Shown in pieces: positions 7,387 through 48,021 of a stretch of 64,000 bases of DNA (the stretch's first letter is position 1; every line of letters begins with the position of its first letter). The notes beneath the pieces were generated by a model. The model was not told the DNA's origin, did no database searches, and saw nothing but the letters and a program-made list of their open reading frames with translations. The stretch comes from an uncultured Ruminococcus sp. GTDB taxonomy: Bacteria; Bacillota; Clostridia; Oscillospirales; Acutalibacteraceae. The stretch spans positions 42,079 to 106,078 of the forward strand of contig CADBCC010000002.1 in NCBI GenBank assembly GCA_902793125.1. Reading direction: 5' to 3'. Position numbers and translations under genes: made by a program.

Positions 7387-9267
7387 TTGGATAATAAAAA
7401 CAAAACAAGAAATCTGCTTTTGTATATAGGAATACCGATTGTTGTAATACTTATGGTAACTCTGCTTTTTAACTCACAGCAGAAAACTGAAAGTGTTAAA
7501 ACTTCTCAGATGGTAGGTTACTTTGAAAAAGGCAAGGTTAAGGATTATCAGCTCAACTACGGTACGGGCGCGATAAAAATTACATTAAACGATAAAAAGA
7601 AAACCGTTGTAAACGGAACTATTGCCGACCCCGAGGAGTTCAGAGCGGACATTAAGCCGTATGTAAGCAAGAATAAGGATATGACTTACGACCTGGTTCG
7701 TAAGACAGATAATTCTTTCCTTATGAATATACTGCCGACGATTATTCTATTTGTGCTTATAATTGTGTTCTGGTTCTTTATAATGCGCCGTATGGGTTCA
7801 GCCGGACTCGGCGGAAAGGAAATGAGCTTCGGTAAAGCTAAAATCAAAAATACCAACGATGAAAAGCGTAAAACTACGTTTGACGACGTTGCGGGAGCCG
7901 ATGAGGAAAAAGAGGAATTGGAAGAAATCGTTGAATTCCTTAAATCTCCCGAAAAATATAATACCTTGGGCGCCCGAATTCCGAAAGGTGTTTTGCTTGT
8001 CGGACCTCCGGGAACAGGTAAAACTTTGCTCGCGAGAGCTGTTGCGGGTGAAGCGGGAGTTCCTTTCTTTTCAATTTCAGGTTCCGATTTTGTAGAGATG
8101 TTTGTCGGCGTAGGCGCGTCGCGTGTGCGTGACTTATTTGACCAGGCTAAGAAAAACTCTCCCTGTATTGTATTTATAGATGAAATCGACGCTGTCGGAC
8201 GCCAGAGAGGCGCGGGACTCGGCGGCGGACACGATGAGCGTGAACAGACTTTGAACCAGCTGCTTGTTGAGATGGACGGTTTCGGAGCCAACGAGGGTGT
8301 TATTATGATAGCTGCTACAAACCGCCCCGATATTTTGGATCCCGCTCTTATGCGTCCCGGACGTTTTGACCGCCAGGTTATCGTAAGTTATCCCGATATT
8401 AACGGACGCGAGGCAATCTTAAAGGTACATGCCCGAAAGAAACCTCTCGCTCCCGATGTTAAACTCAGAACTATCGCAAAAACAACCGCCGGCTTTACGG
8501 GAGCCGACCTCGAAAACCTCTTGAACGAAGCCGCGCTTTTAGCCGCGAGAGCGGATAAAAAAGCGATAACGATGAAAGAAATCGAAGAAGCTACAATTAA
8601 GGTAGTAGCGGGAGCTGAGAAAAAGAGCAAGGTTATGTCCGATAAGGAAAAGAAGCTTACTGCTTACCACGAGGCAGGCCACGCCATACTTTTCCACGTC
8701 TGCGAATCTCAGGATCCCGTTCATGAAATTTCAATTATTCCTCGAGGAATGGCGGGCGGATATACAATGCCGCTTCCGACCGAGGATAAGTCCTATATGT
8801 CGCGTAACGAGATGTTTGAGGATATCGTTGTGGCGCTCGGCGGACGTGCGGCAGAGGCGATTATCCTTGACGATATTTCCACAGGCGCTTCCAACGATAT
8901 TGAAAAAGCGACCAAGACCGCGCGCAATATGGTTACAAAATACGGTATGACCGATGAACTCGGACCTATCGCTTACGGTCAGCAGAGCGGAGAAGTTTTC
9001 CTCGGAAAAGATATGGGACACGTTAAAGACTATTCCGACGAAACCGCCGCTAAGATTGACGAACTCGTACTGCAAATAGTTAAAAAAGCTTACGGTGAGG
9101 CTGAAAGCCAGCTTAAAGCGAATATTGATAAGCTCCACGAAATCGCTAAGTACCTTATCAAGAACGAAAAAATGCACAGCGAAGATTTTGAAAAAGTTAT
9201 GAATGGTACTTTTGAGTGGAATGAAGAAGAAAGCGAAGACGAAGAAGAAACAGCAAATAATGAATAA
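7387..9267 (+). CDS. ftsH: ATP-dependent zinc metalloprotease FtsH
   Basis: FtsH is a membrane-anchored AAA+ protease that degrades unassembled membrane proteins and regulators. The 626-residue product has a first transmembrane helix at about 10-27, a short extracytoplasmic domain, a second helix at about 112-132, and an AAA+ domain with Walker [14 protein letters not shown] near 206, Walker [13 protein letters not shown] and [22 protein letters not shown]. The M41 peptidase zinc motif HEAGH is near 429. TTG 7387 is the start, with AAGGAGTG about 8 nt upstream. The acidic tail (EEESEDEEE) is common. A repeat element occupies the gap before uvrA. Confidence 0.97.
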
Positions 9268-9269
9268 CT

Positions 9270-9473
9270 TAATTAACAATTAATTATTTACAATTAACAG
9301 TTTCGGTCGTGTAGATAGAATTGAATTATCGTTAAAGTTTATTTCCCGACCGAATTACTATGCTTCGCAAGCGAAGCTTGCATACAGATTATGTCGGGCA
9401 AATGAGGGTGTTTCAAAACCCATTCTATCTGCCCGACATTAATTGTTAATCATTAATTGATAATTGTTGATTA
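9270..9473. repeat. MITE-like element with long imperfect terminal inverted repeats
   Basis: The entire ftsH-uvrA gap is an inverted repeat. The left arm (AATTAACAATTAATT..., then CAGTTTCGGTCGTGTAGATA) is mirrored by the right arm (TATCTGCCCGACATTAATTG, then TTAATCATTAATTGATAATTG) over about 50 bp. The inside holds a second palindrome, CTTCGCAAGCGAAG, near 9362. A related element lies at 37746-37920. No coding sequence is present. Confidence 0.6.
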
Positions 9474-9490
9474 TATTTCCGGAGTTAATT

Positions 9491-12313
9491 ATGAAACAAA
9501 TAATCGTAAAAGGCGCCCGCCAGCACAATTTAAAAAATATAAATGTCGGAATTCCGAGAGACAGACTCGTTGTTATAACGGGCCTTTCCGGTTCGGGAAA
9601 GAGTTCGCTTGCTTTCGATACTATTTACGCTGAAGGTCAGCGCAGATATGTCGAGAGTTTAAGTTCCTATGCCCGTATGTTCCTCGGCCAGAGTAATAAA
9701 CCCGATGTTGACGATATACAAGGCCTTTCTCCCGCGATTTCAATCGACCAGAAAACCACATCTCATAATCCCCGCTCAACCGTCGGAACGGTGACGGAGA
9801 TATACGATTATCTGCGTCTTCTGTACGCGAGAATAGGTATACCGCATTGTCCTGTCTGCGGCCGCGAGATTTCCCAGCAAACTATCGACCAGATTGTTGA
9901 CAGCGTACTTGAACTTAGCGAGGGTACAAAAATCCAGATTATGGCTCCGATTGTAAAGGGAAGAAAAGGCACCCAGCAAAAGGAGTTTGAAAAGGCGAGA
10001 AAAGCGGGATTTGTAAGGGTAAGAGCTGACGGCGAGGTTTACGACCTTTCCGAAAAAATTGATCTTGAAAAAAATAAAAAACATAATATAGATATAATTG
10101 TTGACCGCCTTGTTGTAAAGGACGGTATCCGCTCGCGTTTAGCCGACTCGCTCGAAACGGCGTCGAAGCTTACAAACGGGCTTATTACCGTAAATGTTAT
10201 CGACGGAGAGGATCTTAATTTTTCCCAGAATTACGCCTGCCCAGAACACGGTGTCAGTGTGGACGAGCTTACGCCGAGAATGTTCTCGTTTAATAATCCT
10301 TTCGGCGCCTGTCCTAAATGTACGGGACTGGGTGTGTTTCTGAAAGTTGATCCTCAGCTTGTGATTCCCGATCCCGAACTCAGTATAGCTCAGGGAGGCT
10401 TAAAAGGAAGCGGCTGGGCTATGGAGGGTAATTCCATCGCTGAGATGTACTTTAACGCCCTTGCCGAGAAGTACAAATTCAGCGTAAATACTCCTATTAA
10501 AGATTTGCCCGAAAAAATAATAAACATCCTGCTCTACGGTACAAACGGCGAAGAAGTCCGCTTGCACAGGCGTATGCCGTTCGGCGACGAACGAATTATG
10601 AAACGGCCGTTCGAGGGGATAATAAACAACCTTGAAAGACGTTTTAAAGAGACGACAAGCGCGTGGATAAAAGACGAAATCCAGGGCTATATGGCGGAAA
10701 TTTCGTGTGACGAATGCGGAGGACAAAGACTTTCCAAGGAAAGTTTAGGCGTTACCGTCGGCGGCCTTAATATCGCCGAGTTCTGTGATATGCAGGTTGT
10801 TGAAGCGCTCGACTTTATAAATAACGCCGAACTTTCCGAGCGTGAGCGTTTTATCGGAAAAGCCGTAATAAAAGAAGCGCGCGAAAGAATCAACTTTTTA
10901 AACAGCGTCGGACTCGGCTATCTTACATTATCGCGCTCAAGCGGTACTCTCTCGGGAGGTGAAAGCCAGCGTATCCGCCTTGCAACTCAGATAGGCTCAT
11001 CTCTTATGGGTGTAATGTATGTGCTTGACGAGCCGAGTATCGGACTTCATCAGCGGGATAACGAGAAGCTCTTGGATACTTTAAAACACCTTCGCGACGT
11101 CGGTAACACCGTAATTGTTGTTGAGCATGACGAAGAAACAATGTACGCTGCCGACCATATTATTGATATCGGCCCCGGAGCGGGAATCCACGGCGGAGAA
11201 ATTGTCGCCGAGGGAACTGTTGACGAAATAAAAGCCTGCGAAAAATCAATAACCGGGCAGTACCTCAGCGGTAAACGATTTATTCCCGTACCTGAAAGCC
11301 GACGTAAAGGCAACGGAAAATACCTTGAAATAAAAGGCGCCGCTCAGAACAATCTAAAAAATATAAATATAAAATTTCCGCTCGGAAAGTTTATATGTGT
11401 AACGGGAGTTTCAGGCTCGGGAAAAAGCTCGCTTGTTAACGAAATTGTTTATAAAAAATTAGCGTCCGAACTTAACCGCGCAAAAATCCGCGCGGGCAAG
11501 CATAAAAGTATAAAAGGACTTGAAAATCTTGATAAGGTAATTAATATTAACCAAAGTCCAATAGGACGCACGCCCCGAAGCAACCCCGCGACATATACGG
11601 GCGTGTTTACCGATATACGCGCGTTGTTCGCGACAACTTCCGAAGCTAAAATGAGAGGTTATACCCAAAGCCGTTTTTCGTTCAACGTAAAAGGCGGACG
11701 ATGTGAAGCCTGTCAGGGCGACGGAATTATAAAAATCGAGATGCACTTTTTGCCCGATGTTTATGTTCCGTGCGATGTCTGTAAGGGAAGAAGATATAAC
11801 CACGAAACTCTGGAAGTTAAGTACAAGGGGAAAAGTATTCACGATGTGCTTGAGATGACGGTTGAGGAAGGACTTGAGTTCTTTAAATCTATTCCGAAAA
11901 TCAACCGTAAACTGCAAACCCTGTACGACGTTGGTCTCGGATATATAAAAATCGGACAGCCCGCTACAACTCTTTCGGGTGGCGAGGCGCAGCGTGTAAA
12001 GCTTGCTACAGAGCTTGCAAAGCGCAGCACGGGCAGGACGGTTTATATTCTTGACGAGCCGACTACGGGGCTCCATATCGCCGACGTCCATAAACTGAGT
12101 GAAGTTCTTGATAAACTCGTCGAAAGCGGAAATACTGTTATCGTAATTGAGCACAACCTCGATTTAATTAAAATTGCCGACCATATTATCGACCTCGGCC
12201 CCGAGGGCGGAAATAACGGCGGTGAAATTGTAGCTCAGGGTACTCCTGAAGAAGTCGCCGAAGTTGAAGGCTCTTTTACGGGACAGTATCTCAGGAAAGT
12301 TTTGATTAAATAG
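9491..12313 (+). CDS. uvrA: Excinuclease ABC subunit A
   Basis: UvrA is the damage-sensing ATPase of nucleotide excision repair. The 940-residue product has two ABC ATPase halves: Walker [21 protein letters not shown] near residue 31 and GVSGSGKSS near 637, two ABC signatures ([12 protein letters not shown] and [12 protein letters not shown]), and CxxC zinc-binding pairs ([21 protein letters not shown]...CDVCKGRR). ATG 9491 is chosen because GGAG lies 6 nt upstream and homologues begin [16 protein letters not shown]. An upstream in-frame start at 9464 would lie within the repeat element. No LexA box of the GAAC-N4-GTTC type is visible in the short leader. A strong terminator follows. Confidence 0.97.
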
Positions 12314-37956: not shown

Positions 37957-40900
37957 ATGAAAACGAAACTAAAACGATTTTCTAAGCGTTCATTAGCTAT
38001 GCTTTTATCATTATTAATGATGTTATCGGTACTTAGCGTTGGTTCGATTATTACTACAGCTGCCGCCGATACAATCACACTGTATTATCAAAAAGATATG
38101 CCTAGTGGTAACTACAGTGCATCAAGTTCAATAGCAATGACTCAGTCAGCAAAGAATACATCTAAGTATTATGCATCTGTTTCCCTTCAGAATGGATCCT
38201 ATGGTTTTTATGTTAAATGGGGCAATAATTACTATAAAGTTAATGCTACTGCGACAACTGATCAAGACGTTCTTTTATATAATTACGGCTCAACTAATTA
38301 TGGTAACTCAAATCATCGTGTGACTTACTCTACAGGAGCGGCAACAAATTTTACTTTTACGTTTGATACGAGCAATAATAAAATTGCTGTGCGTCCTAGG
38401 GATACAACTACGGTCAAGATGGCTTGGAGTACAGCGAGCGGTCATGATGGTGACTGGAATTTAGGTACATACGATACAATGACACACACCAGTAATGGCT
38501 TATATACTAAAGACCTTTCTTTGACTGCCGTTAAGCATTATATGTTTATCCAGACTAATAACACGAATTACTATAAGTCTTCTAATACTTTAACTCAAAA
38601 TAGTACTGATTCTGGTAAAGTAGCAAAAATGTATTATTATGGTACTAATAATTATGGTGGTTCGGGGGATAAAGTTAATTTTACTCCGAATCCTGCTGGT
38701 AAGTATCGTTTTACATATGATATTAAAGACCAAACCGTTACAATGTATAGGTTATATGATGTAACGTATAACAAAGGTACTGCACCTTCGGGTGGCGGTA
38801 CTATCAGCGGAACTGTGCCGTCAGCACAGTTAAAAGTACACGGTACAAATTTAACACTGCAGACTAACGCCTTTACATCTTCAGGATACACACAGAGTGG
38901 TTGGGCGACTTCTGACGGTGGTTCACGGGCATATACTTCTGGTGCGACTTATTCAACAAACAGCGGTTTAACTCTTTATCCTTACTGGTCTGAAAACACT
39001 TATTCTGTTACCTTTACTAAAAAGTTAGGTTCGGCTGCGGCGACAAATATTACAACTAAGAGCGCCGGTGTAACTACAAAAGCAAGTTATACAGCTCCCG
39101 CAGAAACCGGTTATAACTTTACGGGTTGGACAATTACATCCGGCTCAGCTAACGCTTCTAACGTAACAGGTACAGAGTCCGCTTCGGATACTACGGTTTC
39201 GTTAAACGCGAGCGGCGCGGTTACAGTACAGGCTAACTACGAAGAAGCCGGTACCTGTGCAATTACAGCAAAGAAAACTAATTCTTCGGGCGCGGTATTA
39301 AGCGGCAACACAGAGTCTATGACTATCGGCTCCAACATGACAGTTTATGCCGAGGGTAACTCTTATCATTCCAGCGGCAATTTTAGTGTTTCGAGTAGCA
39401 ATTCGTCAGTTGCTTCCGTAAGCTCTGCTACAGTAGCTAAAAACGGTACATTTACTGTAAGTGCTAAAAGCGCTGGATCGGCTACAATTACAATTTCCTG
39501 TCCCGCTGACAGCAAGAGTACTACATTTGATGTAACTGTAAGCAAATCTGACCTCGCCGCTACATTCTCATCGGCTGACCATGTGTATGTCCTTAAAGGT
39601 GATAACACACAGTCTATGGGTTATACAGCAACACCTTCGGTTTCCAGCGTATCGTATTCGTCGGGCAACACAAGCATAGCTACGGTTAATTCGACTACAG
39701 GCGCGGTTACACCCGTTGCGGCAGGTACCGTGACTATGACTGTTACCGCCACATTCACTAACGGTGGTACAGATACGGCGACAAAGGATATAAAGGTTCA
39801 GGCTCCGACTCTTACGGTTAGTTCGAATACTCTCGCGCTTGATTATACTTCTAATTCAACAAACGCGGGAAGTGATTATAAAGGTACAAATACATTTACG
39901 GTTACAACGAACGGTAATAACCCGGCGTATAATCCTGTTACCAGTATTACTGTTGTATCAAATGACACAAATATCGTTACCGTCAATAAAGCAACTATTA
40001 CATCCACAAGCGCGGAAACCGTAACAGCAACAGCTAAGGCTGTCGGTTCAACTAATATCGTTGTTAAGTATTTTATTAACGGTACAGAAGTAACTTCATT
40101 AAGAAAAACAATTGCGGTTACCGTATCTGCTTACGACGTAAATATGACTATTTACGCAAGTCCGCAAACTAATATTGGTACAGGTTCAGGTCAATGGAAC
40201 GGAGTATATTTCATACCTACAGGCGGCAGCGGCGGAACCGCTATGACTAAGATTGGTACAGATAACAGCGGTAGCAAACCTGTTTACGCATTAAATATTA
40301 CAAAGAAACAGTTTACTGACGGTTTCTATTTTGGTCAGGCAGCTGCTATAAATACAGATAGTAAGCGTAATACACCTAAACAGACAGGTTCGGATACTAC
40401 TAAAAACTATTATAAAATAACAGATGCCGGTAGTGGCGGCGCATGGCACGCCGGCGGTTCGGTAGCTAAATCAGCTATTACAATTACAAAGCCTTCAATT
40501 TCTGCTAAATCAAATGAAACACTGAACGCGGGCGCGACTAAAACAGCTACAGCTCCTACAGTTTCAGGAAGCGTATCAAGCTATCTTTGGACTTCGGGTA
40601 CTGCATCTGTTGCGACAATTTCAGGAACAGGCGCGACACCTACAATTACAGGTGTATCAAACGGTTCCTCGGCGTCAACAGTACGCGCGTTCATCCCGCT
40701 TGCAAATACAGGTATTACATTCAGCTCGCTTGAAACATCCAGCTCAGCTGCTTATGATTATATCGCGTCTAACGCCCAGAGCTTTAATATCACGGTTCAG
40801 GATGTAAAACATACTGTTACAGTTGTAGCTGTTTCGAGAGATACCTCAAACGGTACATACACTACAGACGCTTCGGCTATGGCGAGTTCAACAGTAACCC

Positions 40901-43900
40901 CTTCAGGCGGCGTTTCTCATAATGCTACAGCTACAGTAAGCGCTACAGCGGCAAGCGGATATCAACTTATTGGTTACTATTCTGCTGCAACCGGCGGCAC
41001 ACAGTATACCAACGGCAATTTAGGCGCTGTAACAAGCGATATGACTGTATATGCTCGTTTTGAGAAAAAATATACTTTAACAATAAACAAAGGCTCCAAT
41101 AACGGAACTGTAAGTCCGGCGTCTATGGTAGTTTACGCTGCAGTTAAACCCGGAAATATTTCCGTTACTGTAAATAGCGGTTATCGCATTGACTGGGCTA
41201 ATTCAACTAATCTTTCAAAATATTACAATCAGCCTGCTTCTTTAGTAGGTAATGTAACATTAACAGCAAAAGAAGTTGCTAATATCAACTCAGCTGATAT
41301 GGTCAATAAGACTATAACTATTGCATTTGAGGAAGTTACACCTGTTGTAAACTTTACCTCTTATAAGACTGACGACAACTCAACCTATGTTGCCGGCGGC
41401 GGAGAGCTTACAGCTACATATTCTACCGGAAGCGGCGGCGGAGTATCGCCGACTCCCGATCCCCAGGCTCCCGCAAGATATCTCTGGCGAAACACTACAA
41501 ACAGTGAAAACCCCACAAATTTCGGAAACTGTATTACAATGTCAGCAGATACAAGCGGAAACTATTACGCAAGCTTTAATCCCGGCAGCAGCAATTTCTA
41601 TTTCAATATCAACGACAGCTCCTCAAGCGCTACAAGCGGTTCACAGAAGCTTAACAGCTCAACTTCCTGTGATAAAGGTTCCGGTATTGCTGACTGGTCG
41701 ACTGTTGGTAACTATTATGCCGACGGTACAACATACTATATCGGTAAAGGTTACTTAGACAGCGGCTCAACTTTATATGTGAAGTTTGATCCTTCAGCAA
41801 ATAAAATTACTTTACAGAACTCGGCGTTCTCATATACAGCATCAGGAAGCGGCTCAAGCCAGAGTTCGGGTTCAGGTACATCCGGCGCGGTTGTTTCCGG
41901 CGGAACAGTACCTTACGGTGCTGACGTAACCTTTACTGCTGAAAAGGTTGCTGTAATAAGCGGAAATACTTACGAATTCATTGGCTGGTATTCTACAGCT
42001 CAGCCTGCCGCAAATGAAACAGCGCTTTCTACAAGTCTTACTTATACAAAATCAAGCGTAAATGATGACGTAACTGTTTACGCTCGTTATAAAAAATCAC
42101 TTTACCTTACTTTCTATAACTCTTATGTTCAGGAAGCTAACGGTAAATTCACATTCGTAGCGGCTCCTCCGAGAACAGTTACCGTAGGTTCCGGAAGCTC
42201 TGTAAGAGCTACTTATTCCTACAAGGCAGGTAACGCGGAGCAGCGCGGCGAGGACCATACAAAGAACTCAACATCCGATTACTATGAAGGTAACCGACTC
42301 CTCGTACTCGTGGGTGAAACAGTTACTTTGAAATTCTCAACCCTCGCTTCTTCCGATGCGATTACAGGTATCTTCTTTAACAACGGTATCAGATATACCA
42401 CCGAAACCGAACCCGATAACCTCTATATGAACAGAGTTAATCAGGGTATCGCGGCTCACGGCGGTAACGGTACAGGTACTCTGAAAGATCCGAGCCATCC
42501 TGATCAGGGTTATACCAATGGTGACGATGAGTGGGATTACACCTACTTGCCCGATACCACAATCTATGCCGACGAAGATTATTACGAAGGCGCTACTAAG
42601 ACAACTATCCAAAACAATGCATCAAGTTATATCGGACAATCCGGTATGGACCAGGCTGCTCACACAGTTTCATGGGTAGCAACTCAAAGCTATATGAACA
42701 TTGATATTGAGCTCGGAAGAAAATACCAGCTCCATATCAACGACGATAAGCCCGACGGTATCAGTATTGCTAATATGAACGATGAGGGATACTACTATGG
42801 CGGCGAGATTATTGAGTCTACAACTCCCAACCATACAAACGGACTTAAGATTACATTAGATAATACTACAGATACTACAGGTACATACAGCTTCACAAGC
42901 GCAACTCCTGTATGGAAAGATAAGGACGGAAATACAGTATCCGCTCCCTCGGGAGTTTACGCTAAAGCCTATACTTCCGGTAACGCCGAGACTAACACCC
43001 CCTCAAGTATCCACCACTGGTTAATCTACGGCACAATGCCTCATTCGGATTTATATCTTACTATCCCTGTTGCGAAGAAGTATAATATGAAGCTTTCGAA
43101 TATCGTAGTTTCAGATAACGGCTCAAGCAAGAGAACAATGATTACCGAATGCAGCACTAACAGTACTTCGGCTACAGACTGTATCGGTACTATCTCAGGT
43201 AAGGTTGACGGTACAACTCAGGCTTCACTTACCGATGATGGAACGTACTACACATATCCTAATAATAATTACGCCGGTCACGTAGAGGCTTATACAAGCA
43301 ATACTAACAATAAGTACCTCAACGGCGGTGTTAACAGAAACGGATATAATGTTACAGCAGGTCAGACAGTAACCTATACGTTTAGTTTCAGCAGCGGTAA
43401 AGACGCTGAGTATACGTTCGTAGGTTGGTTTGAGGGTACTTACAATAATGTTTCCAACACTGATTTCTCTTATGACGTAAATTATAATAAGAAGCTTTCC
43501 GGTAAGGAATCCTTCACATTTACTCCTTCTAAGAATACGGTAGTTATCGCTGTTGCTACACGCGATATGTATATCGGCGGTAACTTTACTAAGGACGGCG
43601 CTTATACATCCACAGCTTCCTCGCAGACCTGGTCTAAAAACCGTCCGTTAATGGATTTCGACCCGACTTATGTTAACCCCGAAGATCCTTCTAAGAAGGG
43701 TAGATATACATACACATTTGATACCGTAACAGCTAATACAGAGTATAAGTTCAGATGCTACGATACAGTTGGTACAGGAGCATCGGGACAAGATACAACA
43801 AATCTTAGCGTTTGGAGCCAGTGGAGCGGTTCCGATTACGCTAATGACCCTGATGATATTTTCTACGGTCGTCATAAATATGACGCTGAGTATGGATATT

Positions 43901-46887
43901 CCCACGGTCAGTTTGTTTATAAAACCAATACCAACAACTGGTCATTAGTTGATAATACAGCGTCAGACCATGATTCCAATAAGAACCACCAGGCTAACGG
44001 CTATGCCGCTCCCGTAACGGTTTACTTCTACGCTTATGACGGCGGTATGAGCGTAAGCTCAACCTACCAGTGGTCAAGAGCTTACGTATCCGAAGGACGT
44101 GGTATTGACGTTAAGTCAGTAACTACCTCCGGTAATACTACAACAACTACCTACAACTCTCCCACAGCTTCCGTCGCGAATAAGACAGTTAATAATAAGG
44201 ATGTAACTGTTACTACAAATACAACTTCTTACGGTCACGACGGTATGACCGAAAAGATTTACGAATGTATCGTAAAGGAAAAAGACGGTCAGATTGTTGT
44301 AACAGCTTCCCCGAAGGACCAAAACTTAGAGCTTCAGGCTTTCCTTGTCTATAATATAGAGACTAAGGCGAGTGAAGCGGTTAAGGGACCGTTTACAACA
44401 TCAGGTTCAGGTGACGCGAAGACTTATACAGGTAATATCAAAATTCCGAACAACAGTAAGATTTATGTATGTCCGATTTATAAATTTACCGACGCGTATA
44501 TCAGCGCTCAGAACCTTGAATCCCATAACGTATTCGTTCGTGCCGATGATATCGATAAGGACGACTGGGGCGGACTCGTTTCTATGTACTCATGGGGTAC
44601 TACCTCTGGTTACGACAGCGGCGGATGGCCCGGACAGCTTATGGTTCCTTCCGACGACGGTACTTCGTTCTACGCTCCCTTAGTATTCCAGAAGGGCGGA
44701 CTCGCGGGTGTAACCTTCAACAACTATACTTCAGTTTACGGCGGCGATTTTATCAACTTCCTCGGTAAATATCAGGATGCGGGCGTAAGCGATGTAGCTT
44801 ATTCCAACTATACAAAGCCGACCGCGGATAATAACTATATTTATCAGGTATTTGACTATCGTGAGCCTATCTCGATTATAGAGAATATTAACGAAGGCGA
44901 TATTTACGACAGCGAGGATATGACTCTTACCTTCGCGCTTAAGCCGGGTAATAAAACATCAGGAACAGTCGGTAACGGCGCTTATAACGATTCGTTTAAT
45001 TACGAATACCTGACCGACAGTTCGGGTAAGTACAGAGTTGACCTTAACGGAAATAAACTTTCAACATATCCGACAGCTTCCTACTACGTAGTTTGTAACT
45101 ATACCGAGGCATACGCGCCCGGCGGTGCTAAGACCTATGACTTTGCTCCTACAACACATAACAGATATTCAATAGATTGGAACGTTTACGATCAGAACCA
45201 CGTACTTGTTGCTAACGGTACACAGCTCTCAGCTGCATTTACAGATGTTGAAAAGAGTGAGATGCTTACCTATATTGCTAAACAGCTTATCGATGACGGC
45301 CAGCCTGTTTCAGGTAAAGCTGTTAAGATTGCTTACGAAAACCCGAAGGTAAGTTCATCCGATAACACTGAGGCGGTTCGTTACTCAGGTCAGTGGTACG
45401 CGGACGGACTTAATACAATCATTAAAGGTAATGTAAGAGTTGGTATCTATTCCGACGGCGTTTATACACCTTCTGATTCAAACAGCGCGGGTTACGGTAC
45501 TGCTACAGTTGGATTTACACCCGATACAACTATCGGCGAAGGTTACGAAACCGAGACAGGATGTTCAGGTCATTCTCTCGCTAATGTAACTAAGACTCAT
45601 GCTTCAAACGGCGATGTTCAATACAGAGTAAGCACTACCGATAACTTCCTCGGATGGTATCGTAAGACTAAAGACGGTGATTTTGAGCCCGTTGGTACTA
45701 ACTATAAGAGCGTAGCAATTAATCCTTCGTTCAACGAAGATATTACACTCTACGCGTTCTACTCGGCTTCGGCTTCCTATCGTTTCGCTTATACAAGCCG
45801 TACGGGATCTACGAAGTATTATACAGCTAAGGGTACTGACTTGACTGATGCCGAGCTTGCGAACAGCGGTACATTGAATCCTACAACAAGATCCGCTGAT
45901 ATTACCGCAAAACTTGCAGGTGTTACCGATATTAAAGTATTTAACCATGATTTAACTTATGCTTTGACTTCACCTGATACAAGCAGCCCGTATACTATTA
46001 CCTATACCGCGGGTGATTCACCGTCCACTTACACTCTGACGGTTTATGCGTATAATTCATCCGGTACGCTTGCGCAAGTTGGTTCAAAAACAGGAACATG
46101 GAATACTTCACTTGATGTTAATAATGACCTGACTACTTACGCTTCAGGCTTTACAAAAGGAAGTAAGCTTGTTAATAATAAACCTTCTGACCATGGTAAT
46201 TATATCTTCCTCGGCTGGAGAAAGTATAACGGTTCAGCATTTGAAGGACCTATAATTTCCACTAAGGAGAACTTCGGTTACAGTATTACAAGCGATACTA
46301 CAATTGCTCCGTACTTTGTTGACCCAACCGATAATACAACAATAAATAATTACATCAGCGAAGCTTGGAAACCCGGAGTAGATAACTCGGTTGTAACCCA
46401 GGAACTCACAAAAGAGGGCGAAGGTGTAATCTTTAACGATAACCTTATCAGCTTCCGCTACGGTTCGGATACAAATAAGCGTATAGACGGCTCGTCTATT
46501 TACAGCGGCGATCCCAATACCGTTCCTGAGGGTAAACAGTGCGGCGTAGTAGTTCTTGCTCAGGCTAATGACGCGGCTGCCGATAAGAAGACAGCTTTCA
46601 ATACTCATTACAATACCGACACTAATATACAGTCGTATGTTAACTACTTCGTAACAGGAGCCGAAAGTGAAAAATCAAGCGTTAAGATGTCCTCAAGCAA
46701 GTATGGCGATGCTTATGCGTTCCACGTTAAGGCGCCGACTCTGTCAAACCTTAACCGCGCGAATATTGTTCAGGCGCTTGATTACGCTAAGTTCAGCGGC
46801 GGAAACTACAAGGTAATGTCTTACTACTATGACGGTTCGTCTTACGTTTACAGTGATGTTACCTCCGGCACGTTAACTTGTTCGTAA
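37957..46887 (+). CDS. Giant secreted multi-repeat surface protein with InlB-type, Big_2 and starch-binding-like modules
   Basis: A 2976-residue exported protein. The signal peptide (about 1-36) ends in TTAAAD. Approximate layout: two beta-rich modules at 38-265 (ITLYYQKDMPSGNY; LYTKDLSLTAVKHYMFIQTNN) resembling starch-binding modules; InlB/Listeria-Bacteroides repeats near 270-430, 950-1100, 2560-2610 and 2745-2790 (ETGYNFTGWTI, FLGWYRKTKDG, YIFLGWRKYNG); Big_2 domains at about 455-725; a carbohydrate-module-like region at 1170-1290; and near 2195-2260 a CBM26-like stretch with SMYSWG...GGWPGQLM and VTFNNY. The C-terminus has no LPXTG, dockerin, SLH or membrane anchor. GGAGG lies 9 nt before the ATG. 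The protein is Ser/Thr/Asn/Gly/Tyr-rich and lysine-poor compared with its secreted neighbours. A 48-residue peptide gene follows after 19 bp. Confidence 0.85.
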   Translation: MKTKLKRFSKRSLAMLLSLLMMLSVLSVGSIITTAAADTITLYYQKDMPSGNYSASSSIAMTQSAKNTSKYYASVSLQNGSYGFYVKWGNNYYKVNATATTDQDVLLYNYGSTNYGNSNHRVTYSTGAATNFTFTFDTSNNKIAVRPRDTTTVKMAWSTASGHDGDWNLGTYDTMTHTSNGLYTKDLSLTAVKHYMFIQTNNTNYYKSSNTLTQNSTDSGKVAKMYYYGTNNYGGSGDKVNFTPNPAGKYRFTYDIKDQTVTMYRLYDVTYNKGTAPSGGGTISGTVPSAQLKVHGTNLTLQTNAFTSSGYTQSGWATSDGGSRAYTSGATYSTNSGLTLYPYWSENTYSVTFTKKLGSAAATNITTKSAGVTTKASYTAPAETGYNFTGWTITSGSANASNVTGTESASDTTVSLNASGAVTVQANYEEAGTCAITAKKTNSSGAVLSGNTESMTIGSNMTVYAEGNSYHSSGNFSVSSSNSSVASVSSATVAKNGTFTVSAKSAGSATITISCPADSKSTTFDVTVSKSDLAATFSSADHVYVLKGDNTQSMGYTATPSVSSVSYSSGNTSIATVNSTTGAVTPVAAGTVTMTVTATFTNGGTDTATKDIKVQAPTLTVSSNTLALDYTSNSTNAGSDYKGTNTFTVTTNGNNPAYNPVTSITVVSNDTNIVTVNKATITSTSAETVTATAKAVGSTNIVVKYFINGTEVTSLRKTIAVTVSAYDVNMTIYASPQTNIGTGSGQWNGVYFIPTGGSGGTAMTKIGTDNSGSKPVYALNITKKQFTDGFYFGQAAAINTDSKRNTPKQTGSDTTKNYYKITDAGSGGAWHAGGSVAKSAITITKPSISAKSNETLNAGATKTATAPTVSGSVSSYLWTSGTASVATISGTGATPTITGVSNGSSASTVRAFIPLANTGITFSSLETSSSAAYDYIASNAQSFNITVQDVKHTVTVVAVSRDTSNGTYTTDASAMASSTVTPSGGVSHNATATVSATAASGYQLIGYYSAATGGTQYTNGNLGAVTSDMTVYARFEKKYTLTINKGSNNGTVSPASMVVYAAVKPGNISVTVNSGYRIDWANSTNLSKYYNQPASLVGNVTLTAKEVANINSADMVNKTITIAFEEVTPVVNFTSYKTDDNSTYVAGGGELTATYSTGSGGGVSPTPDPQAPARYLWRNTTNSENPTNFGNCITMSADTSGNYYASFNPGSSNFYFNINDSSSSATSGSQKLNSSTSCDKGSGIADWSTVGNYYADGTTYYIGKGYLDSGSTLYVKFDPSANKITLQNSAFSYTASGSGSSQSSGSGTSGAVVSGGTVPYGADVTFTAEKVAVISGNTYEFIGWYSTAQPAANETALSTSLTYTKSSVNDDVTVYARYKKSLYLTFYNSYVQEANGKFTFVAAPPRTVTVGSGSSVRATYSYKAGNAEQRGEDHTKNSTSDYYEGNRLLVLVGETVTLKFSTLASSDAITGIFFNNGIRYTTETEPDNLYMNRVNQGIAAHGGNGTGTLKDPSHPDQGYTNGDDEWDYTYLPDTTIYADEDYYEGATKTTIQNNASSYIGQSGMDQAAHTVSWVATQSYMNIDIELGRKYQLHINDDKPDGISIANMNDEGYYYGGEIIESTTPNHTNGLKITLDNTTDTTGTYSFTSATPVWKDKDGNTVSAPSGVYAKAYTSGNAETNTPSSIHHWLIYGTMPHSDLYLTIPVAKKYNMKLSNIVVSDNGSSKRTMITECSTNSTSATDCIGTISGKVDGTTQASLTDDGTYYTYPNNNYAGHVEAYTSNTNNKYLNGGVNRNGYNVTAGQTVTYTFSFSSGKDAEYTFVGWFEGTYNNVSNTDFSYDVNYNKKLSGKESFTFTPSKNTVVIAVATRDMYIGGNFTKDGAYTSTASSQTWSKNRPLMDFDPTYVNPEDPSKKGRYTYTFDTVTANTEYKFRCYDTVGTGASGQDTTNLSVWSQWSGSDYANDPDDIFYGRHKYDAEYGYSHGQFVYKTNTNNWSLVDNTASDHDSNKNHQANGYAAPVTVYFYAYDGGMSVSSTYQWSRAYVSEGRGIDVKSVTTSGNTTTTTYNSPTASVANKTVNNKDVTVTTNTTSYGHDGMTEKIYECIVKEKDGQIVVTASPKDQNLELQAFLVYNIETKASEAVKGPFTTSGSGDAKTYTGNIKIPNNSKIYVCPIYKFTDAYISAQNLESHNVFVRADDIDKDDWGGLVSMYSWGTTSGYDSGGWPGQLMVPSDDGTSFYAPLVFQKGGLAGVTFNNYTSVYGGDFINFLGKYQDAGVSDVAYSNYTKPTADNNYIYQVFDYREPISIIENINEGDIYDSEDMTLTFALKPGNKTSGTVGNGAYNDSFNYEYLTDSSGKYRVDLNGNKLSTYPTASYYVVCNYTEAYAPGGAKTYDFAPTTHNRYSIDWNVYDQNHVLVANGTQLSAAFTDVEKSEMLTYIAKQLIDDGQPVSGKAVKIAYENPKVSSSDNTEAVRYSGQWYADGLNTIIKGNVRVGIYSDGVYTPSDSNSAGYGTATVGFTPDTTIGEGYETETGCSGHSLANVTKTHASNGDVQYRVSTTDNFLGWYRKTKDGDFEPVGTNYKSVAINPSFNEDITLYAFYSASASYRFAYTSRTGSTKYYTAKGTDLTDAELANSGTLNPTTRSADITAKLAGVTDIKVFNHDLTYALTSPDTSSPYTITYTAGDSPSTYTLTVYAYNSSGTLAQVGSKTGTWNTSLDVNNDLTTYASGFTKGSKLVNNKPSDHGNYIFLGWRKYNGSAFEGPIISTKENFGYSITSDTTIAPYFVDPTDNTTINNYISEAWKPGVDNSVVTQELTKEGEGVIFNDNLISFRYGSDTNKRIDGSSIYSGDPNTVPEGKQCGVVVLAQANDAAADKKTAFNTHYNTDTNIQSYVNYFVTGAESEKSSVKMSSSKYGDAYAFHVKAPTLSNLNRANIVQALDYAKFSGGNYKVMSYYYDGSSYVYSDVTSGTLTCS

Positions 46888-46906
46888 TAATAAGGAGGGT
46901 ATGAAT

Positions 46907-47053
46907 ATGAAAAAATTATATATTGCTCCTGAATTTGATGTATACAAAGTTACACTTCAGGATGTTCTGCTCGCAAGCCCTACCGAGGGAACTATTCCCC
47001 AGGGCGGAGATTTAGATCCTACGCTTCCTGATGAAGAAGGTCCTGATTTCTAA
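46907..47053 (+). CDS. 48-residue conserved-type small peptide
   Basis: The peptide MKKLYIAPEFDVYKVTLQDV continues LLASPTEGTIPQGGDLDP and ends TLPDEEGPDF. AAGGAGGG lies 8 nt before ATG 46907 (another in-frame ATG at 46901 is too close), 19 bp after the stop of the giant gene and before a strong terminator, so it is the last gene of that unit. The basic, aromatic N-half with (K)xYxxPE, then a DVLLAS core, then an acidic Pro/Gly/Asp tail is a layout I associate with short uncharacterised peptides in gut Clostridia and Bacteroidetes. There is no signal peptide or cysteine. The function is unknown; a precursor-peptide or partner role is speculation. Confidence 0.75.
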   Translation: MKKLYIAPEFDVYKVTLQDVLLASPTEGTIPQGGDLDPTLPDEEGPDF

Positions 47054-47073
47054 TCAAAGATTTATATCTTAGT

Positions 47074-47107
47074 AAAACGCCGCGGTTATTCCGCCGCGGC
47101 GTTTTAA
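47074..47107 (+). terminator. Terminator after the giant gene/small-peptide operon
   Basis: AAAACGCCGCGG (47074-47085) pairs with CCGCGGCGTTTT (47094-47105), ending in T's. Confidence 0.85.
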
Positions 47108-47136: not shown

Positions 47137-48021
47137 ATGAAACGGTTTATTATATTTTGTATATCCGTTTTGCTCTTAATATCTTTTATTACGAGCGTGT
47201 ACGCCGCCGATACCGGTGCTATAAAATCCGGTGACAAGGTGGTTATCAAAGATGAAAACTGGGCATATGAAAAAATAAATAATACATACGGTTATGAGAT
47301 TGACGAGTATATCGGAAGCGGTGTAGATGTAAGCTTACCTTACTCGTTCGCTAAACAATATGTAACGTCAATCGGAAGCTATGCTTTTAACCGGAAAAAT
47401 GTAAAAACTGTAGAAACAACCTATAAGATTGAACGCATAGGCGAATATGCTTTTAACGGCTGTGTTGAGCTTGAGAGCGTAAATCTTTATGATTCAATTA
47501 CATCATTAGGCGTCGGATGTTTTTACGGAGATACCGCTTTAAAGAATGTGAATTTACAAGCGACTTCCGTAAATTTTGTACCCGCATACTGTTTCGCTGA
47601 TTGCGGAATTGAAAAAATCAGATTACCGAAAACTTGTACGTCGATTAAAAATTACGCGTTTTATAATTGCGGAAGTCTTAAGTATGTTACAATTCCCGAA
47701 AGCGTAACGGAAATTGCCGATAACGCGTTTTACGGTTGCGGTAATAATCTTGTTATTGTTTGCAATAAAGATTCATACGCTGTTCAATATGCGCAGAGTA
47801 AAGGTATTAATTATATTTTGCTCGGTGACTCGAACGATGACGGAAAGTTTAATATCCGCGACGCTACGGCTATTCAGTATTACAAAATCGGTCAGATGGA
47901 ATTAACTGACTACGGTAAGATATGCGCCGATGTTGACCATAACGGAAAAATTAATGTAAGGGACGTAACATATATCCAGATGAAAATCGCTAAAATGGAA
48001 CTTCCCGAGGATTGTTTCTAA
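47137..48021 (+). CDS. BspA-like leucine-rich repeat protein with type I dockerin
   Basis: A 294-residue secreted protein. The signal peptide (about 1-23) ends SVYAAD. LRR_5 (BspA-type) repeats cover about 70-210: IGSYAFNRKNVKTVETTYKIERIGEYAFNGC, LGVGCFYGDTALKNV, IKNYAFYNCGSLKYVTIPESVTEIADNAFYGCG. A type I dockerin fills about 230-290 with two EF-like calcium loops, DSNDDGKFNIRDATAIQYY and DVDHNGKINVRDVTYIQMK. The dockerin predicts binding to a cohesin on a scaffoldin or the cell surface; no enzyme domain is present, so the LRR part may be an adhesion or recognition module. GAGGATG precedes the ATG. It is paired with a similar gene downstream. Confidence 0.9.
   Translation: MKRFIIFCISVLLLISFITSVYAADTGAIKSGDKVVIKDENWAYEKINNTYGYEIDEYIGSGVDVSLPYSFAKQYVTSIGSYAFNRKNVKTVETTYKIERIGEYAFNGCVELESVNLYDSITSLGVGCFYGDTALKNVNLQATSVNFVPAYCFADCGIEKIRLPKTCTSIKNYAFYNCGSLKYVTIPESVTEIADNAFYGCGNNLVIVCNKDSYAVQYAQSKGINYILLGDSNDDGKFNIRDATAIQYYKIGQMELTDYGKICADVDHNGKINVRDVTYIQMKIAKMELPEDCF

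Follow-up and report, generated by a model that had tools for sequence, protein, structure and literature searches.

The closest described counterparts of the locus discussed here are the linear polyphosphorylated peptide (LPP) systems, prototyped by the lpp cluster of Paenibacillus alginolyticus, a gene set published in May 2026 with the role of its peptides stated as unknown (PMC13381572). In the lpp cluster, the kinase phosphorylates Ser3 of the core, and a SipW-like peptidase cuts the leader with the assistance of the RRE; in the crystal structure of LppB, N33 holds the leader Pro and D70 the leader Tyr. The precursors follow the consensus YxxPxVLxHQxIxFETxxS and occur as one to three per cluster, often by capsule loci (PMC13381572). 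Related chemistry is found in lasso peptides: BsfA of Bradymonas sediminis is phosphorylated on Ser3 and has Tyr at position -17, Pro at -14, a hydrophobic residue at -12, and Ile/Val at -2 (PMC10368454), and in paeninodin and pseudomycoidin an HPr-kinase homologue and a nucleotidyltransferase modify a Ser (PMC8498205). The main text of PMC13381572 makes no mention of Clostridi, Ruminococc, secreted, adhesin, or lipoprotein, and in the open-access literature we found the cassette described solely in that article and no link to secreted-protein genes.

We analyzed a 64,000-nucleotide stretch of DNA from an uncultured Ruminococcus sp. (hereafter the window) and consider it likely that a 48-codon gene in it specifies a precursor from which an LPP-like RiPP pathway, acting in trans, makes a small phosphopeptide.

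A 48-codon gene and its family

The gene, MKKLYIAPEFDVYKVTLQDVLLASPTEGTIPQGGDLDPTLPDEEGPDF, occupies positions 46907 to 47053 of the forward strand (48 codons, with a TAA stop codon at 47051 to 47053), as supported by ORF reading, the family to which it belongs, and an orthologue. What reads as a ribosome-binding site, AAGGAGGG (46892 to 46899, same strand), lies 7 nt 5' of the ATG at 46907, and an alternative in-frame ATG at 46901 is 1 nt from it. Upstream, across an intergenic gap of 19 bp, is the forward-strand gene for a giant secreted protein of 2976 aa (37957 to 46887; ORF call and Pfam), which has a signal-peptide-like N terminus and weak InlB/Listeria-Bacteroides repeats (Pfam Flg_new at 26.8 bits versus a cutoff of 27). 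The first-pass annotation had placed a 48-codon peptide gene with a ribosome site 19 bp behind the giant gene, as our rereading of the coordinates bore out. The strong terminator that it had proposed was upheld in part: a very stable hairpin with a 14-bp stem (47073 to 47106, forward strand; z = -6.4) is present and probably marks the end of the operon, but its U run lies within the stem with no consensus U tract after it, and a scan for consensus terminators returned none. Beyond the hairpin is a gene for a secreted BspA-type LRR protein with a dockerin (294 aa; 47137 to 48021, forward strand; Pfam). The first-pass annotation took the gene to be too short for the usual callers, but common gene callers accept ORFs from 90 nt. 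The peptide had no family match in Pfam, NCBIfam, or PHROGs.

An orthologous locus in another genome (G345, locus L323) has the gene order giant protein, peptide (MEKIYISPEFEVFKVDLIEDALVGDGSLEHLSSQTDEPELPTGESTMEDF), 300-aa dockerin protein, PqqD, peptidase, and ABC exporter, with a dockerin-type gene in the same place as in the window and a giant protein 49% identical to that of the window over 1673 aa. With its start at 46907, its ribosome site, and an orthologue with conserved neighbors, the 48-codon gene is real. Gene order places the peptide and the giant protein in one operon, from which we infer that they are cotranscribed. Between the two peptides, pS is 0.77 and pN 0.40 in what is a single pair with pS near saturation; pN is 0.26 in the leader and 0.54 in the tail.

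A search with the single sequence in 100 genomes of the taxonomic family of the host (the genome that carries the window) gave 19 with E values of at most 1, many of them inside long unrelated frames and dropped on reading; a profile search was therefore needed. In the host genome (2.0 Mb in 51 contigs, 97.6% complete), paralogues were collected by profile search and reading of the matches, and the improved profile gives 16 matches at an E value of ≤0.01; one further own-genome match, C19:4476, was dropped because it lies within a ribosomal-protein gene, and its region, L051, was excluded from the counts. The profile matches peptides in 37 of 150 genomes of the taxonomic family (E ≤ 0.05) and 31 of 196 genomes of the class (E ≤ 0.01). 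The peptide thus belongs to a Clostridia-wide family, the members of which share an N-terminal half of the form K-x-Y-x-x-P-E...D-V-[IL]-x-x-S within the first 25 residues, followed by variable, acidic tails (86 of 96 carry a net negative charge; Cys occurs in 7 of 96). A sequence resembling a ribosome-binding site precedes 84 of the 96 members, whereas of the other ATGs of these regions 1198 of 18,687 (6.4%) have one. The gene withstood the refutation that had been proposed for it, a lack of homologues or of synonymous-site bias: homologues exist, and 16 close pairs, which share sequences and so are not independent, give a pooled pS of 0.48, pN of 0.22, and pN/pS of 0.46.

Within the host genome (G000; loci L041 to L050, L178 to L181, and the window), we observed two classes of peptides. 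One combines PEF with acidic tails (window, C10, C13, C39, and C3:119189), and the other has PEI.VEEL-like leaders followed by tails that terminate in LL, FL, or IL (C1, C4, C17, and C37).

Probable maturation enzymes and predicted processing

In an alignment of 48 rows, the Tyr of the leader motif is invariant and the Pro is conserved in at least 90%; the window peptide reads YIAPEF, an instance of the lasso-type [Y/W]xxPx[L/V/I/F/A] leader motif. On account of this likeness to the lasso YxxPxL motif, we sought PqqD-type proteins and found two in the host genome, at 59 and 58.5 bits over a cutoff of 23.4. In the taxonomic family, such proteins occur in 36 of 37 genomes with the peptide versus 51 of 113 without a detected peptide (p = 1.5e-9), the lone PqqD-less peptide genome (G086) having a weak peptide match with an internal stop. 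In the class set, an HprK-like kinase is found in all 31 peptide genomes versus 27 of the 165 in which no peptide was detected (p = 2e-20). Peptide and PqqD genes lie within 5 kb of each other on 18 contigs from 15 of 36 genomes, on one strand in 16 of the 18.

For a comparison of cassettes, we used 22 regions, namely, 20 (18 of which were picked for closeness of peptide and PqqD) and the two host PqqD loci. The recurrent families are PqqD (17 regions), a SipW-like peptidase (16), an HprK-like kinase (16), an ABC exporter (14), and NTP_transf_5 (8), and some cassettes outside the host genome carry one to three precursors. The kinases have invariant Walker A GxGKST-H and NDDKP motifs, one relative matching PF07475 at 0.0035, below its cutoff. 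The SMxP, HR, and GD motifs are conserved in the peptidases (A4), and the host peptidases match TIGR02228 at 1.6e-11 and 9.6e-6, also below its cutoff. In the host genome, contig C21 encodes an HprK-like kinase, a PqqD, and a peptidase; contig C35 encodes a PqqD, a peptidase, and an ABC exporter (ABC_membrane, cut by the contig end), with the kinase being on another contig than this PqqD; and contig C5 encodes a nucleotidyltransferase (PF14907, 1.1e-42). The earlier remark that no modifying enzyme is adjacent holds within the window, but the enzymes are present on other host contigs, and PqqD, peptidase, and exporter genes adjoin the orthologue. The PqqD of the orthologous locus is 71% identical to that of C35 and 34% to that of C21, and the corresponding values for its peptidase are 53% and 31%; because both are closer to C35, the C35 set is the one that, judging from sequence, most likely serves the window peptide. 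The two peptide classes stand alongside two PqqD proteins, and possibly there is one recognition protein per class.

Several genomes combine many peptide matches with a single kinase match, namely, 15 in G165, 11 in G253, and 10 in G200, and G166 has 17 with two kinase matches. Seen from the kinase, no peptide is nearby in 7 of 13 kinase regions, the other 6 having been picked for a nearby peptide. In a kinase-chosen sample of 80 named loci, taken mostly from metagenome assemblies of Ruminococcus and other Clostridia, a PqqD lies within 6 kb in 51 and a peptidase in 41, and a peptide lies within 3 kb upstream in just 13 (9 of the 59 with room). Many contigs of this sample are short, and remote precursors or divergent peptides would escape detection, but the peptide count is low and speaks against the phosphopeptide reading, as do the genomes that have the kinase or PqqD and no detected peptide, the host members that do not follow a secreted-looking gene, and the position of the kinase off the contig of the C35 PqqD. 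We suggest that the genome supplies, at other loci, the enzymes that probably phosphorylate, trim, and export the peptides of the family, which supports the modified peptide among the three guesses of the first-pass annotation.

In 4 of the 22 regions, we observed a radical SAM version of the cassette with longer, Cys-bearing precursors of 79 to 102 aa (L120, 10090 to 10356; L123, 8033 to 8272; L126, 11202 to 11453; L128, 9390 to 9698). These mostly have several Cys and an MKKxYxKPEIxFESF-type leader and are encoded beside PqqD and radical SAM genes, with an HprK-like gene in three of the four loci; in two loci, the gene preceding the precursor codes for a secreted protein of large size, 1388 aa in L123 and 2320 aa in L126.

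A Ser is found 19 residues after the Tyr in 78 of 94 and 22 of 23 peptides, against a base rate of 4 to 7%. As the Tyr-to-Ser spacing is the same as in BsfA, we predict a leader of residues 1 to 21 (46907 to 46969, forward strand) with YxxPxF (Y5, P8) for the PqqD-type protein, as also indicated by alignments; an exported core of residues 22 to 48, acidic and proline-rich (46970 to 47050); and phosphorylation of Ser24, i.e., core Ser3 (codon 46976 to 46978). A pathway can be conceived in which the peptide is produced from the operon that it shares with the giant secreted protein and docks through its N-terminal YxxPxF strand onto a PqqD-type recognition protein, most likely that of C35, as sequence and linkage suggest. 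The HprK-like kinase of contig C21 would then phosphorylate Ser24, in keeping with the register of BsfA and LPP, and the SipW-like Ser-His peptidase would take off residues 1 to 21. The MsbA-like ABC exporter would carry out the acidic core, the phosphate of which the nucleotidyltransferase may extend. In the last and weakest step, the external core might cooperate with the surface protein encoded in the same operon, serving it as a binding partner, say, or as a ligand in assembly. The phosphorylation, the export, and the joint action with the giant protein are all inferred.

Secreted neighbors and shared tails

The main set for the analysis of gene position comprised 91 regions with 96 peptides that scored above 12 bits; the regions had been chosen from a longer match list, mostly for matches at an E value of ≤0.005; after removal of 3 without an upstream ORF and 9 cut by an edge, 84 remained. 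In 69 of these, the upstream ORF shares the strand of the peptide gene and lies no more than 250 bp away. It also has a hydrophobic N terminus in 58 of 84, compared with 203 of 626 for the background ORFs of these regions, a pass rate that marks the test as crude, and it is in addition at least 500 aa long in 44 of 84 versus 50 of 626. The 58 secreted-looking ORFs have a median length of 945 aa and a median gap of 18.5 bp. A held-out set of 20 regions from other taxonomic families was fetched after the idea had been formed, without two top matches located at contig edges; it contains 23 peptides, 1 of which is cut. Among the remaining 22, the upstream ORF satisfies the same strand and distance limits in 21, has a hydrophobic N terminus in 16 (background, 23 of 74), and is also at least 500 aa long in 11 (background, 6 of 74). 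The proposal that such peptides form a conserved family accompanying large secreted proteins is supported by both the family-wide gene positions and the held-out set. In the host genome itself, 10 of 16 members follow an uncut secreted-looking ORF of 477 to 2976 aa, 2 are interrupted by contig ends, and the other 4 are not behind a secreted-looking gene.

The C39 peptide is among the few members that have no secreted protein in front, and 5' of it are two adjacent ORFs (L047, 10719 to 11859) that resemble pieces of a MutS-type gene. Conversely, there are secreted proteins without a peptide (L045, 1708 to 3207; L043, 10587 to 14849) that bear the C-terminal pattern V.YAPY.N..G..Y.SC.VNW.AL, which is common to several peptide-linked giants too.

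In five loci (L124, L134, L159, L284, and L121), the secreted neighbor ends in a near copy of the peptide tail, as in L124, where the tail DKGWSDWWTPEF very closely matches the C terminus DEGWSDWWTPEY of the upstream secreted protein (9186 to 9302 and 9341 to 10402). Near-identical tails at a score of at least 32 occur in 5 of 118 peptides versus 0.35 expected with shuffled partners. As a general rule, identity of the tail with the upstream C terminus was rejected (4 of 106 pairs score at least 30 versus 1.1% of shuffled pairs), and the tail of the window peptide has no resemblance to the C terminus of the giant protein. Tails and upstream C termini are matched within genomes according to Mantel tests, with r values of 0.72 in the host genome (p = 0.0005, n = 12) and 0.90 (p = 0.014, n = 6), 0.98 (p = 0.037, n = 5), and 0.53 (p = 0.11, n = 5) in others, which duplication of whole operons can explain. 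Six patterns were tried for tail motifs, so that their p values are exploratory.

Upstream of the C21 kinase, with a small dockerin gene in between, and of its relatives lies the gene for a lipoprotein whose tail is conserved and whose linker is rich in Ser/Thr; the recurring tails of cassette lipoproteins include DNVEVDFNDL and IELPMIPL, and a scan found lipoproteins at 19 of 110 kinase loci, at least two rows of which look spurious. In L046 (6664 to 7170), L228 (6005 to 6493), L230 (5862 to 6473), and L234 (5990 to 6508), we noted a lipoprotein with a Ser/Lys/Thr-rich linker ending in DN[VA]E[VI]DF[NS]DL and then, immediately 5' of the HprK-like kinase, a small secreted protein that has [IF][RQ]P at its end.

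The sharing of tails with secreted neighbors and lipoproteins suggests, as a lead, that the tails act outside the cell. A doubtful but more specific idea is that the tails form a surface code, in which the exported phosphopeptide would be a free copy of a C-terminal tail also displayed by secreted proteins or lipoproteins. Peptide and surface protein would compete for, or be joined by, one extracellular receptor, and each large surface protein would have its own phosphopeptide partner, with one maturation set for all.

The cassette lipoproteins could also be immunity or receptor proteins of a mature peptide that serves in signaling or antagonism and merely shares a promoter with surface proteins. 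A conserved leader, a variable core, and several precursors per genome are typical of such peptides; however, the preference for secreted-protein genes recurs across taxonomic families, and tails are kept between orthologues, both in the window pair and in a second one (C3:95391 and L324; pS 0.89, pN 0.25), making this reading improbable. The tight coupling to large secreted-protein genes and the codivergence of tail and upstream C terminus in the host genome would also fit a small protein that stays in the cytosol and serves the giant protein as a chaperone or secretion pilot, with an indirect link to the PqqD cassette. We consider this reading improbable: the conserved half is a leader-like motif rather than a fold, the signal peptide of the giant protein is ordinary, the presence of the peptide tracks PqqD and HprK across widely differing genomes, and operon duplication could itself give the codivergence. 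The chaperone suggested by the first-pass annotation found no positive support.

Comparison with lasso peptides and LPPs

That the gene encodes a true lasso precursor with a macrolactam ring in its core is very improbable and was rejected: the YxxPxL leader, PqqD, HprK-like kinase, nucleotidyltransferase, and ABC exporter are common to paeninodin- and Bsf-type clusters, and both host PqqD proteins have lasso PqqD models as their best NCBIfam matches (below cutoff), but the lasso leader peptidase B2 (PF13471) is present in 0 of 37 peptide genomes versus 5 of 113 others (rare anyway at 5 of 150; p = 0.33, not significant alone), none of the genes that recur across the 22 cassette regions is cyclase-like, the one examined of four host PF00733 matches, near a paralogue, fits an asparagine synthase/amidotransferase (119.5 versus a lasso cyclase cutoff of 525), and the predicted core begins with Leu instead of Gly. 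The register of the window peptide is identical to that of BsfA (Y-17, P-14, V-2, S3), the Bsf system differing in its lasso B2 and cyclase and, in the available part of PMC10368454, in having no surface-protein association. Paeninodin and pseudomycoidin share the HPr-kinase homologue and the nucleotidyltransferase and differ in the modification of a C-terminal Ser and in their lasso fold (PMC8498205).

The system described here and LPP both have a discrete RRE, an HprK-like kinase, a SipW-like peptidase, an NTP transferase, and an MsbA-like exporter, together with a YxxP leader, a variable C terminus, and a Ser near the end of the leader, without the lasso B2. The profile of the PqqD-type RRE matches LppB (9x8z) at an E value of 3.8e-8, and N35 and D72, the two residues that do not vary among 13 PqqD-type proteins, align with N33 and D70 of LppB (the numbering match is ours). 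In the alignment, TbiB1 and TfuB1 share D72, a position at which the paeninodin-type PbaB1 has Gln, and TfuB1 also shares N35. The peptide is an LPP-like precursor that very probably works like an LPP. Because the published leader consensus is only partly matched (YxxP, the hydrophobic residue two positions after it, and the final Ser agree, and the middle and FET differ), we call it an LPP-like variant and not a member of the LPP group.

If so, there is an LPP-like pathway in Clostridia, relatives of Ruminococcus included, whose precursor genes are individually coupled to those of large secreted proteins. The LPP role, stated as unknown in PMC13381572, becomes testable peptide by peptide against the surface protein of each, and precursors remote from their enzymes can be found via the surface-protein gene in front. 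The specific predictions, a modified Ser24 and a cut before residue 22, are both checkable by mass spectrometry.

Prochlorosins are lanthipeptides in which one modifying set serves many scattered precursors. The family described here resembles them in its single enzyme set and many dispersed precursors, and we know of no surface-protein link for prochlorosins. From the LPPs as published, it differs in a leader that lacks the VLxHQxIxFET part, in a Tyr-to-Ser spacing of 19 rather than 18, and in the placement of its precursors: instead of one to three within a cluster, there are up to 17 scattered matches per genome for one or two maturation sets (16 in the host, mostly remote), lying behind secreted-protein genes. 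What is new relative to LPP is the large number of dispersed precursors that are served in trans, the association of these with large secreted proteins, and, in a few loci, the sharing of tails.
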